A stretch of DNA of 64,000 nucleotides, from the NCBI RefSeq assembly GCF_020181655.1, contig NZ_CP084032.1, forward strand, positions 1,240,001-1,304,000. The letters run 5' to 3'. The position numbers were made by a program, and so were the translations under genes. Each line of letters opens with the position of its first letter. Within the stretch, counting starts at the first letter, position 1. The stretch is from Pectobacterium colocasium. Its GTDB lineage: Bacteria > Pseudomonadota > Gammaproteobacteria > Enterobacterales > Enterobacteriaceae. Below the pieces are notes generated by a model. That model was not told where the DNA came from. It worked only from the letters and a program-made list of their open reading frames with translations, and made no database searches. Positions 59,481 through 64,000 of the stretch are shown here, in pieces.

Positions 59481-59497
59481 TTTTAGTGAGGTTAAGT

Positions 59498-60880
59498 ATG
59501 CGTAGTGGTCTTGCCCTGTCGTTAATGGCTTCCTGCATCACATTGGGTATTCAAGCAGGCTCTGCACAAGCGGCCAGCTCAGTGAAATTCCCCGATAAAA
59601 TCTGTGACGTAACGCAATACGGCGCCGAAGGCCACCGCTTACAGATCGCACTGAATACCGAGGCTTTCCAGAAAGCGATTGATGACTGTGCTGCGGCCGG
59701 CGGGGGAACGGTACACGTACCTCGCGGTAACTATCTGGTCGATCCGCTGTTCCTGAAAAGTAATATCAGGCTGGATTTAGCGAAAGATGCGACCATTGTT
59801 GCGTCGACCGAAGAAGCGGCGTATCGCGCCACGGAAAAAACCAAGTACGCTGAAGCGGAAAATGGCTGGCTTCCCTTCATCAGTATTGCGGATGCGCAAA
59901 ACGTGGCTATCACCGGCCAGGGCACCATTGATGGGCAGGGCGCCGTCTGGTGGGAACGCTGGCGTGCCAATATTCGCGCAACGGGCAAGAAAGGTGGTAC
60001 CGATCGTCCACGCCTGATTTATATCAAAAATTCCAGTAACGTGTTGGTGGACGGCGTCACGCTCACGCACTCCCCAAGTTTCCACGTTGTGATGCGTTAC
60101 TCGCATGATGTGGATGTGAACGGTACGCGGATTCTGTCGCCGTGGCATGCGCCAAACACGGATGCTATCGACCCGATCGACAGCCAGAACATCCGTATTA
60201 CCAACAATTATATCGACTGTAATGACGACCATATCGCGATAAAAGCCGAGAAGCCGGATAGTCGCTTCCCGAACGGCGTCGTCGATAATATTTATATCGC
60301 CAATAACATCCTGAAGCAGGGGCGCGGTATCTCCATCGGCAGTGAAACCTCCGGCGGTGTGAATAACGTGCTGGTCGAAAATAACCAGTTCGAAGGTTCT
60401 ATGTACGGAATCCGTATTAAAACCCTGCGTGGTAAAGGCGGTGAAGTGAAAAACATCACCTACCGTAATACTAAAATGGTGGATGTCGAAATCCCGCTGG
60501 TCTTTGCGGGTTACTATAAAGCCGCGCCGATTGTGCAGGCTGAAGTAGACAAGATGCTGGCCGAAGGCGGCTTCACTATGGGCGAGCAGATTTACCCACC
60601 GGATACCGATCCAGAGCAGCCGTTTGATCAATACAAAACGCCGCATTTCAGTAATGTGACGATTGAGAATCTGGAGTCGACCGGTAAGACCAAGGCGGCG
60701 GCATACATTATCGGCGTGCCGGAAGCCCCGCTCAGTGGTTTCCACTTTGATAACGTGCGCATTGATGCAGATAAAGGGATTCGCATAAGGAACGCGGAAC
60801 TGCAAACCAAAGGCCTGACGGTGAATGTGAAAGAAGGCCCAGTGATGCAGCTGGATAAAGGGGCGAAAGTCGATCAGTAA
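59498..60880 (+). CDS. pehN: Secreted GH28 polygalacturonase
   Basis: The 460-residue protein has a Sec signal peptide (about 1-25, cut after SAQA) and a right-handed beta-helix of glycoside hydrolase family 28. Catalytic motifs are visible: NTDAIDP, then DCNDDHIAIKA (Asp-Asp pair), GRGISIGSET (the usual GHG His is replaced by Arg here) and RIKT. It degrades homogalacturonan of plant cell walls. The sequence differs from the classical PehA and, by position and length, fits PehN of Pectobacterium; that symbol rests on memory of the locus. ATG at 59498 follows GAGG; the upstream GTG was rejected. Confidence 0.82.
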   Translation: MRSGLALSLMASCITLGIQAGSAQAASSVKFPDKICDVTQYGAEGHRLQIALNTEAFQKAIDDCAAAGGGTVHVPRGNYLVDPLFLKSNIRLDLAKDATIVASTEEAAYRATEKTKYAEAENGWLPFISIADAQNVAITGQGTIDGQGAVWWERWRANIRATGKKGGTDRPRLIYIKNSSNVLVDGVTLTHSPSFHVVMRYSHDVDVNGTRILSPWHAPNTDAIDPIDSQNIRITNNYIDCNDDHIAIKAEKPDSRFPNGVVDNIYIANNILKQGRGISIGSETSGGVNNVLVENNQFEGSMYGIRIKTLRGKGGEVKNITYRNTKMVDVEIPLVFAGYYKAAPIVQAEVDKMLAEGGFTMGEQIYPPDTDPEQPFDQYKTPHFSNVTIENLESTGKTKAAAYIIGVPEAPLSGFHFDNVRIDADKGIRIRNAELQTKGLTVNVKEGPVMQLDKGAKVDQ

Positions 60881-61537: not shown

Positions 61538-62356
61538 TTATGGCGTGGTGGAATGACCATTTCTGAGCAATGTGGGTAAATTCTCATCGCCATACAGATG
61601 CAGGGCACCGACGGCCACAACGTAGTTTCCGGGCGGCAGCGCCTGAAGTTGCCGTTGCCAGAGGCGGTTACGCTGGCCCATCAGCAGGTCGGTCATTTCA
61701 TTGCTAAATGTTGCGGGGATATCCGGCTTATATTGGCCTGGCTTGCTGTCTAGCCACCAGCCGACCATCGTTTGCAGCAGACGCGCGTTGGTGTGCCAGT
61801 GTTGAATTGTATCTTCCAGCAGCAGCAAACCGCCCTGTGGCAGCTGCTGTAACAACTCAACCTGCGTCTGTTGCCCTTCTAGTTCGATGACCGGAATACC
61901 GTGAGATTTCGCCGCGTTAATCAACTGATAATCGATGCCATAGTCGGGGCGTAAGCCCAGCAGCTGTGCCTGCCTTGCTTGCAGCATCAGCGCGGCCTGC
62001 CAGGCCGGAAGCGTATTGATATTGCTTTCATCGAAAGCGAGCGATTCGCAGATTTTTTGCAACTGGCGGTAGCTGTCTGGGCTGAGGCGTTGCACCAGCG
62101 GTGGCTCGTTATCACTGTGGCCGAAGGGGGAGTGTGCATCGGAGATATCGGCTTCGACGATGAGTGCGGTCGCCTGGCGGAGCTGTCGTAACAGCGTATC
62201 GGGCAGCGGTGCCATATCCTGACTCCCCATATGAATACTGCCGACCAGATGTAGCTGTCGTTCGTTGGCAAGCTGAACGTCTATCGCCGGATAGGCATAA
62301 GCCAGCGGTGAAATAAAACCAAGAAAAGTTGCGATTCTGCGCAGCAGTTGCCCCAT
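61538..62356 (-). CDS. ybaP: TraB/GumN-family protein YbaP
   Basis: The 272-residue protein has an N-terminal signal peptide (about 1-21, LAYA) and TraB-family motifs: [12 protein letters not shown] near the start, [10 protein letters not shown], and [15 protein letters not shown] near the end. These His/Glu residues suit a metal-dependent hydrolase (Tiki-like), but the activity of YbaP is not known. Upstream of ybaK on the same strand, as in E. coli. Confidence 0.9.
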
Positions 62357-62493: not shown

Positions 62494-62521
62494 TTGATGG
62501 GTGTGTATTAGTGTGTATAAT
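62494..62521 (+). promoter_or_regulatory. hicAB promoter with a repeated operator-like motif
   Basis: TTGATG (62494-62499) and TATAAT (62516-62521) have a 16-base spacer. Two tandem decamers GTGTGTATTA and GTGTGTATAA (62501-62520) cover the spacer and -10 box, a good place for HicB autorepression. Confidence 0.6.
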
Positions 62522-62543
62522 GAAAATCAGGTTAGGAGGATAT

Positions 62544-62747
62544 ATGAAATCAACTGACCTGATAAAGGAGCTGGCAGCGGCAGGTTGTGAGTGCAAACGG
62601 CATAACGGCGGAAGCCATCAAATATGGTGGTCACCCATTACCGGAAAAACGTTTCCGGTGCCGCATCCCAAAAAGGATTTACCACTTGGAACTGTCAAAT
62701 CCATCAAAAAATGGCGGGGATCTAATCCCCGCCTTTTCGGAGGCAAT
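62544..62747 (+). pseudogene. hicA: HicA toxin, stop codon lost by frameshift and read into hicB
   Basis: MKSTDLIKELAAAGCECKRH then NGGSHQIWW is a HicA mRNA interferase: a small dsRBD-like fold with its catalytic His in GGSH. HicA proteins of this type end KKWAGI after 60 residues. Here one G seems to be missing in TGGCGGGGATCTAA: with TGGGCGGGGATCTAA the frame would read W-A-G-I-stop. As it stands, translation continues W-R-G-S-N-P-R-L-F-G-G-N directly into HicB in frame. Strong AGGAGG precedes the ATG at 62544. Whether the fused toxin works is unknown. Confidence 0.8.
62713..62737 (+). terminator. Hairpin at the hicA-hicB junction
   Basis: A perfect 9-bp stem GGCGGGGAT/ATCCCCGCC with a CTA loop is flanked by A residues before and TTTT after, exactly like an intrinsic terminator, and lies 14 bases before the hicB ATG. 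Confidence 0.6.
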
Positions 62748-63179
62748 ATGTTTTTCTCAGTCGGTGTGGAAACGCCAAAAGATGACGCTACGGCATATGG
62801 GCTGATCGTTCCGGCATTGTGTACTGATGATTACGGCTGTTTCTCCGCGGCTGACAGCCAGCAAGATATCGCACGCATGGCGCGGGAAGCGATTTTAGCC
62901 CTTATTGATGAAGCGGTGAGTCGCGGAAGTCTGGACATTAAGCGACTTAATGATGCTGGATATCTGATCTATGCGGCGATGCCTGATTTCGCGGACTACG
63001 ATAGTTGGTTTGTGCTGGATGTCGATCTATCGGCTTTTGAAGGAAAGCCGCAGAGATTGAATATTTCACTTCCTGATACGTTGATACAGCGTATTGATAA
63101 TCGCGTGCGGGAGCAGCCGGGAACTTATCGCGATCGTAGCCATTTTTTGGCAGAAGCGGCACGTCATGAACTGGAGTGA
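62748..63179 (+). CDS. hicB: HicB antitoxin
   Basis: HicB (143 residues) has the partially degraded RNase H-like N-terminal domain (MFFSVGVETPKDDATAYGLI) and a C-terminal ribbon-helix-helix DNA-binding domain (RLNISLPDTLIQRIDNRV). It neutralises HicA and represses the operon. It has its own GGAGG (62739-62743) and ATG, so free HicB should be made even though the upstream hicA frame now runs into it; both frames share the same stop. Confidence 0.92.
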   Translation: MFFSVGVETPKDDATAYGLIVPALCTDDYGCFSAADSQQDIARMAREAILALIDEAVSRGSLDIKRLNDAGYLIYAAMPDFADYDSWFVLDVDLSAFEGKPQRLNISLPDTLIQRIDNRVREQPGTYRDRSHFLAEAARHELE

Positions 63180-63273
63180 GTCTGGTTAAATAGGTCTGAC
63201 GACAGTCGATAAAAACCATGACAATTTCCGAAAGAGGAAACGCGGCGCGTTGTTGAGACGCGCCGCATTTGTA

Positions 63274-64000
63274 TTACTCACTTTTAGGTGTAAAACGCAG
63301 CAGGCGGTTAGCGTTGCTGACAACCGTGATGGAGGAGAGCGCCATGGCGGCACCAGCGACCACCGGGCTGAGTAGCGCACCGGTCAGCGGGTAAAGTACG
63401 CCCGCGGCAATCGGGATTCCCAGCGAGTTATAGATAAATGCGCCCAGCAGGTTCTGCTTCATGTTGCGCAGCGTGGCATTGGAGAGCGCCAGCGCATCGG
63501 CGACGCCGTGCAGACTGTGGCGCATCAGCGTGATGGCGGCGGTTTCAATCGCAATATCGCTGCCGCCGCCCATCGCAATGCCGACATCGGCCTGCGCCAG
63601 CGCGGGCGCATCGTTGATGCCATCACCAATCATCGCCACGCGTTTGCCTTGAGCCTGTAGCTTTTTGATGGCTTCGGCTTTTCCGTCTGGCAGCACCCCA
63701 GCAATCACCTGGTCGATACCCGCTTCTTTCGCGATGCGCTTCGCCGTAAGCGGGTTGTCCCCTGTTAGCATGACGAGCTGATAGCCCTGCCGATGCAGAC
63801 GCTGCAAGGCGCTCACGCTATCTGCTCGCAGCGGATCGTGAATAGATAACACCGCGATGATGCGACCATTCGCCGCAAGCAATACTGGCGTGATCCCGCG
63901 CTGAGCCTGTTCGTTGATCAGTGTTTCACCTTCGGTGATATCGACCTGATGCTGTTTGAGTAGTGCCGGATTCCCCAACAGCAGAGTGGTATCGCCGATC
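63274..64000 (-). CDS. copA: Copper-exporting P-type ATPase CopA, 3' part
   Basis: The minus-strand frame is open to the right edge of the window, so the N-terminal part with the metal-binding domains and DKTGT motif is missing. Visible are the ATP-binding/hinge motifs [14 protein letters not shown] and [20 protein letters not shown], and the copper-site residues in the last helices (YN in FIYNSLG; MALSS near the end). CopA pumps Cu(I) out of the cytoplasm. The order ybaP-hicAB-copA follows E. coli except for the inserted hicAB. Confidence 0.95.

Follow-up and report, generated by a model that had tools for sequence, protein, structure and literature searches.

An in-frame hicA-hicB fusion in Pectobacterium colocasium, probably produced by contraction of an A-run ahead of a stop-codon hairpin

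In a 64,000-nucleotide stretch of Pectobacterium colocasium DNA, hereafter the window, the genes of a HicA toxin and a HicB antitoxin are joined in a single open frame. The model that we favour, with a probability of about 0.7, is that an A-run near the 3′ end of hicA contracted naturally, which removed the hicA stop and fused hicA to hicB in frame, so that free toxin was lost and HicB was kept. Translation initiated at hicA would then yield a single chain, with 12 new residues (57-68) in place of the final residues of HicA and leading into HicB, and translation initiated at hicB would still yield free HicB. The toxin would be silenced more likely by attached and free HicB and by the loss of its free product than by unfolding. 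In consequence, a releasable toxin-antitoxin pair would have become an antitoxin or repressor locus. A preliminary description of the locus had proposed a natural inactivation with retention of the antitoxin, which fits the evidence, and had ascribed it to a one-base length change; a change of that kind fits as well, and its site is the A-run, not the G residues to which it had been assigned.

The fused frame and its unfused relatives

The elements of the locus are as follows (ORF, open reading frame).

62494..62521, + strand: sigma-70-like promoter, TTGATG-16-TATAAT (consensus scan, 10/12)
62533..62538, + strand: hicA ribosome-binding site AGGAGG (sequence reading; identical in 11/11 genus loci)
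62544..63179, + strand: HicA-HicB single frame, 211 codons plus stop (ORF reading, Pfam)
62544..62711, + strand: HicA domain codons, residues 1-56 (PF07927; secondary structure of both models)
62706..62711, + strand: run of 6 A (genus alignment; trees)
62713..62733, + strand: hairpin with a 9-pair stem, 62713-62721 / 62725-62733, and loop CTA (folding, comparison)
62739..62743, + strand: hicB ribosome-binding site GGAGG (sequence reading; 4 bases paired in a predicted outer helix of a short fragment)
62748..63179, + strand: hicB from its own ATG, 143 codons plus stop (PF15919, E 2.8e-24)

The frame runs on the + strand from the hicA ATG (62544) to the hicB stop (63177-63179) with no internal stop; hicA thus lacks the stop of its own that a two-gene operon would have and that is found in 9/11 complete genus loci. 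That this is one frame of HicA followed by HicB, as had been claimed, is borne out by the ORF translation and by Pfam, which places HicA_toxin (PF07927) at residues 5-56 of the fused chain (E 1.2e-14) and HicB_lk_antitox (PF15919) at residues 75-206 (E 9.7e-24). NCBIfam returned no families. Despite the fusion hicB retains its own GGAGG and ATG, and here the preliminary description was right.

A DNA search of 25 genus genomes found the whole locus in 11, only its two ends in one (G017), short partial matches in two (G006, G014) and no match in 11. The two ends in G017 meet at a 7-base overlap, as if most of hicAB had been lost in a simple deletion; the remnant is consistent with loss of the hicAB locus within the genus. 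The A-run counts 6 in this genome (G000, locus L001) and in a second species (G011, locus L004), and 7 in the other nine loci (n=11, aligned in one orientation). All 11 copies agree through TGGCGGGG, and the G's at 62713-62714 are invariant. A G lost at that position, as had been proposed, is therefore rejected, no genus relative differing there. Seven of the 7-A loci were translated and give the natural HicA end ...KSIKKMAGI, and L003 and L005 carry 7 A and the stop in the alignment; the HicA end in the nine 7-A loci is KKMAGI and not the KKWAGI that had been predicted. The length change thus lies in the A-run, most likely as a natural contraction, and not in the G's.

Recurrence of the run-length change

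Did the two Pectobacterium fusions arise once? In a tree of 3.8-kilobase loci, L001 pairs with L002, which has 7 A (support 100/100), and L004 branches outside L001-L003 (100/100), so that this flank tree requires two run-length changes. A hicAB tree built without the run also requires two; it pairs L001 with L002 (99/96), and the placement of L003 (7 A) and L004 next to this pair is not resolved. Constraining L001 and L004 to a single group gave a tree that was rejected (p-AU 2.1e-5). Since the short-run genomes do not group, the short run either arose in parallel, with two origins, or arose once and reverted. The hicB genes of L003 and L004 differ by one synonymous base, though the flank tree places L004 outside, and this mismatch hints at recombination.

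Species genomes of GTDB were scanned with a HicB alignment, which yielded 68 loci, and among the junctions that were read there was one further in-frame fusion, a frame of 214 codons in Winslowiella arboricola (L031). Compared with what the codon structure of its relatives requires, its run lacks one base; this shortening is read from codons and not from comparison with an unfused sister. In the case of Photorhabdus, the run of two loci (L027, L041) is two shorter than in other copies of that genus such as L028 and L029, leaving hicA open and hicB out of frame. The hicA frame of Brenneria salicis (L021) is broken at another site, and L047, L066, L070 and L078 carry other lesions or internal losses. 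Taken together, the A-run looks like a recurrent mutational target, with in-frame outcomes in two Pectobacterium lineages and Winslowiella and apparently out-of-frame outcomes in two Photorhabdus copies.

The fused protein was also searched against whole genomes, once in a set of 198, of which 52 gave any match, and once in a set of 394, of which 31 matched at 1e-20. Spanning rows, defined by an alignment start at or before residue 7 and an end at or after 207, contained an internal stop in 22/23 and 16/17 cases among the matches listed, the exception being this genome both times; four rows occur in both searches, the count takes in no locus with hicB in another frame, and G011 matched in neither search. 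Among about 5.8 billion proteins, no such fusion was present in the best 120 of 156 matches and none of these covers more than 83% of the query; one match, a 184-residue protein, is translated from a different frame over hicA. When the HicA part served as the query (candidates of about 116-369 residues), there were three matches and no such fusion: a HicA extended at its N-terminus, a 129-residue piece in which the frames are broken, and a more distant extended HicA. A strict-motif scan of 392 family genomes, a set to which G011 does not belong, found the motif in six, with 6 A only in the window, and the corresponding viral scan found five contigs, all five with the hicA stop in place. A phage HP1 match considered as a fusion was rejected, hicA there having its own stop. 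The family is common on plasmids (555 plasmid records), and in the 40 plasmid junctions listed of 469 there was no net length change relative to the query, 38/40 being annotated with both HicA and HicB.

Working device or disarmed remnant

In both of two AlphaFold2 runs of the native fused frame, HicA has the order helix-strand-strand-strand-helix and its last helix stops at residue 56-57, immediately ahead of the stretch altered by the fusion, so that the predicted HicA fold should be nearly complete. In the first run most of HicB is confident (block means about 90 at 71-90) and HicA poor (46-54); in the second HicA is better (59-83 over the first six blocks) and HicB poor. The C-terminal part has QRLNISLP followed by predicted helices at 178-190 and 199-210, an arrangement that we take to resemble a ribbon-helix-helix (RHH) domain; Pfam found no separate RHH family match on the fused chain. 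The nearest solved structures by sequence and fold include the HicAB complex 6g26 and the HicA3-HicB3 complex 4p78, but these consist of two separate chains.

Fused HicAB proteins have been described before. Class 11 of Gerdes 2024 comprises fused HicAB with a C-terminal RHH or helix-turn-helix (HTH) domain, for which a CapRel-like role is suggested (PMC10865869). The frame described here shares with that class a HicA domain followed in one frame by HicB with a putative C-terminal DNA-binding part; HicA is N-terminal and the HicB partial RNase H domain lies after it in the same frame (Pfam; the fold matches the HicB chains of 6g26 and 6g1c). It differs in that a single run-length change separates it from close relatives and in that the separate ribosome-binding site and start of hicB are retained. 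Neither frameshift nor hairpin nor stem-loop occurs as a word in the available text of PMC10865869. Slr1999 of Synechocystis 6803 also holds HicA and HicB domains in one protein and is thought to derive from a two-gene operon (PMC4963859). The passage on Slr1999 names no fused homolog elsewhere and no cause, whereas here unfused relatives exist and the change itself is visible. As far as their relevant passages go, PMC11980606 deals with toxin-antitoxin gene fusions in the RelE/ParE superfamily, PMC5535158 counts E. coli hicAB among translationally regulated systems, PMC4848639 places a stem-loop 3′ of hicB and not between the genes, and PMC6963963 reports HicA and HicB beside cas genes in Pectobacterium in a passage that does not cover the junction. 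Searches of titles, abstracts and passages of open-licence papers on hicAB fusion, frameshift, hairpin, coupling and Pectobacterium returned no report of this junction. In sequence terms, in-frame hicA-hicB fusion by A-run contraction is seen more than once, and fused HicAB is already a published class. What the present locus adds is the birth of a fused toxin-antitoxin gene caught at single-base resolution, repeatedly, with unfused relatives available, and hence a direct way of finding out whether fused HicAB genes still function as devices or are disarmed remnants.

Several observations weigh against a disarmed toxin and against a wholly natural run. The loss of toxin activity is itself, on sequence grounds, probable rather than certain. 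The two models do not fix the relative placement of the halves (predicted template-modelling scores, pTM, 0.57 and 0.40). When each short-run genome is set against its near relatives, HicA codons 1-55 show no nonsynonymous changes, the only differences being synonymous (3 for L001-L002, 2 for L004-L003); this fits a recent change and also a kept function. In Winslowiella, the other frame of L031 likewise lacks a stop at the customary position, and the HicA of this locus is clean, with 17-25 synonymous and 3-5 nonsynonymous changes against the four closest of the seven copies compared, a pattern compatible with a kept fusion. Finally, one run within an ORF and one outside are, in this genome, one base shorter than in all three relatives audited, and a little room is left for slight undercalling in this assembly. 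Retention of HicB, on the other side, finds support in the conservation of hicB, which shares 96-99% identity with the other 10 complete copies of the genus. The sums over all pairs of the 11, which are not independent, amount to 264 synonymous and 10 nonsynonymous changes in hicA and 1191 and 203 in hicB. The time since fusion is too short to separate decay from keeping.

A kept, working fusion of the Class 11 type, in which tethered HicB would restrain HicA until a trigger such as phage infection released it, a mode of action proposed for fused HicAB by analogy with CapRel, is a reading that we regard as unlikely. Both domains are intact in the three in-frame fusions found and nonsynonymous changes are few. 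Nevertheless, each Pectobacterium fusion has a near unfused relative, the protein searches returned no fusion of this kind among the best matches or with the HicA part, and the hicB start is retained, so the chain need not be the main product.

A base-calling or assembly error in the homopolymer, with a longer run and an intact hicA in the true gene, is quite improbable, and we continue to prefer a natural contraction. A-runs of 6-7 are common indel sites, which together with the longer run in 9/11 genus loci and the two further shortened runs mentioned above speaks for such an error. Against it stand the identical short run in G011, a second species, the in-frame fusion at the same run in Winslowiella, and coding sequence near the locus that is almost free of frameshifts in both Pectobacterium genomes. 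The last point comes from an audit of 200 kilobases around the locus in four genomes (G000, G011, G019, G021; 126-144 genes per ordered pair). Leaving hicAB aside, G000 has one frame-broken ortholog, only against G011 (129-132 genes compared per relative), G011 one, only against G019 (126-131 compared), G019 one, against G011, and G021 none. Private lengths of A/T runs of at least 6, taken from alignments, number 3/97 in G000 (1 in an ORF), 3/119 in G019, 1/114 in G011 and 2/120 in G021; they are thus no more frequent in G000 than in G019 and little more so than in the other two. This version was preferred over an exact-flank audit, which covered runs of at least 6 in G000 (33 coding, 28 others) and gave no private change there, but misses diverged sites. 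With assemblies of similar quality, nearly free of frameshifts, and the short run present in two separate genomes, error is unlikely. Of the two parts of the doubt raised in the preliminary description, the one concerning relatives with an intact hicA stands (9/11 complete genus loci), and the one concerning this assembly finds little support, given the second species and the few frameshifts around the locus.

The hairpin at the hicA stop and the surrounding sequence

A 9-pair stem starts right after the A-run and one T. In the relatives the hicA stop lies at the tip of this hairpin, in the loop; the fused genomes retain the hairpin, with the open frame running through it. For the fragment 62700-62752 the folding energy is -21.5 kcal/mol (z -3.34 relative to dinucleotide-shuffled sequences), and the predicted structure includes an outer helix in which four bases of the hicB GGAGG are paired. 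In the longer fragment 62680-62790 z is -1.95 and most of the outer pairing is absent from the centroid, so that pairing of the hicB ribosome-binding site is uncertain. An intrinsic terminator was considered and is not favoured: the T tract on the + strand is short, and the terminator-like match is on the - strand.

To compare junctions, 75 loci (L016-L090) were collected, of which 52 with a HicA-like end were retained, giving 47 distinct junctions; seven were skipped for their ends, and 16 without a hicA match over the score limit, L031 among them, were dropped. A stem of at least 7 pairs, G-U allowed, surrounds the hicA stop in 32/47, against 7/156, 4/158, 3/154 and 2/156 for ordinary genes in four genomes; fewer than 5 pairs are formed in seven junctions (L026, L038, L043, L049, L058, L061, L062). 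In alignment A3, 82.0% of cells pair (shuffled mean 75.5%, 0/500 as high), pairing falls to 42-58% when the partner is slid by 1-3 columns, and 5/9 pairs are changed on both sides (11/500 shuffles as high); all such counts are inflated by related rows. RNAalifold on A3 is weak (4 pairs, -0.07 kcal/mol), and Rfam gave no family match, its only three matches at E ≤10 lying far below gathering scores. Outside the 47, the phage copies L084 and L090 have similar stems by eye. The chromosomal and plasmid hicAB of Enterobacterales (L087-L089, for example) share gene order, domains and hairpin, with a similar spacing (24 vs 22 bases), the difference being their separate hicA stop at the hairpin tip. 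The stop-codon hairpin is, on this comparative evidence, well supported as a covarying element.

What could such a hairpin do? We favour translational coupling, in which ribosomes that terminate at the hicA stop would melt the stem next to the hicB start; where the genes are fused, they would pass the hairpin without stopping and continue into hicB. The hairpin is a candidate for how a toxin-first operon makes enough antitoxin, and we consider it the part of the finding most worth following. In the open-licence literature searched, no report of a hairpin with the hicA stop in its loop was found. A broader proposal, that the two elements make up a two-part switch in which the stop-holding hairpin, partly pairing the hicB ribosome-binding site, couples hicB translation to hicA termination and the A-run lets single run-length changes flip lineages between a releasable pair and a tethered chain, is speculative and rather unlikely.

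The position of the run also raises programmed slippage, in which polymerase or ribosomes would slip on the A-run ahead of the hairpin and yield both products from either run length. Despite an A-run directly before a strong hairpin and a longest run of 6 or 7 A within the last 30 hicA bases in 17/47 relatives, we hold this to be very improbable: the other 30/47 have at most 5 A, so that the slippery run is not conserved and programmed frameshifting is unsupported, hicB lies in the hicA frame in 21/47, only one base separates the run from the stem, less than at classical frameshift sites, and the open-licence papers searched include none joining hicA with transcriptional slippage.

Upstream of hicA, the unit GTGTGTAT recurs at 10-base spacing, with five copies in G011 and two in the other genus loci, one copy being altered in L002. 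These repeats may be a candidate HicB operator. The promoter boxes are conserved across genus loci, and in L004 the extra copies push the -35-like and -10-like boxes apart.

This genome holds two other HicA-family genes over the Pfam cut-off (G000:C1:3415720 and 151245; L185 and L186), of which L185 looks like an intact E. coli-type hicAB. The locus lies near the end of the window, flanked by a minus-strand frame of 272 codons (61538-62356) and by the 3′ part of a minus-strand frame ending at 63274, which we take to encode a copper-type P-type ATPase; in E. coli, another antitoxin-like gene presumably lies between ybaP and copA. A terminator-like hairpin (63242-63266) is located between hicB and this convergent frame. 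Farther upstream, a 464-codon frame (59486-60880) reads like a putative secreted polygalacturonase.
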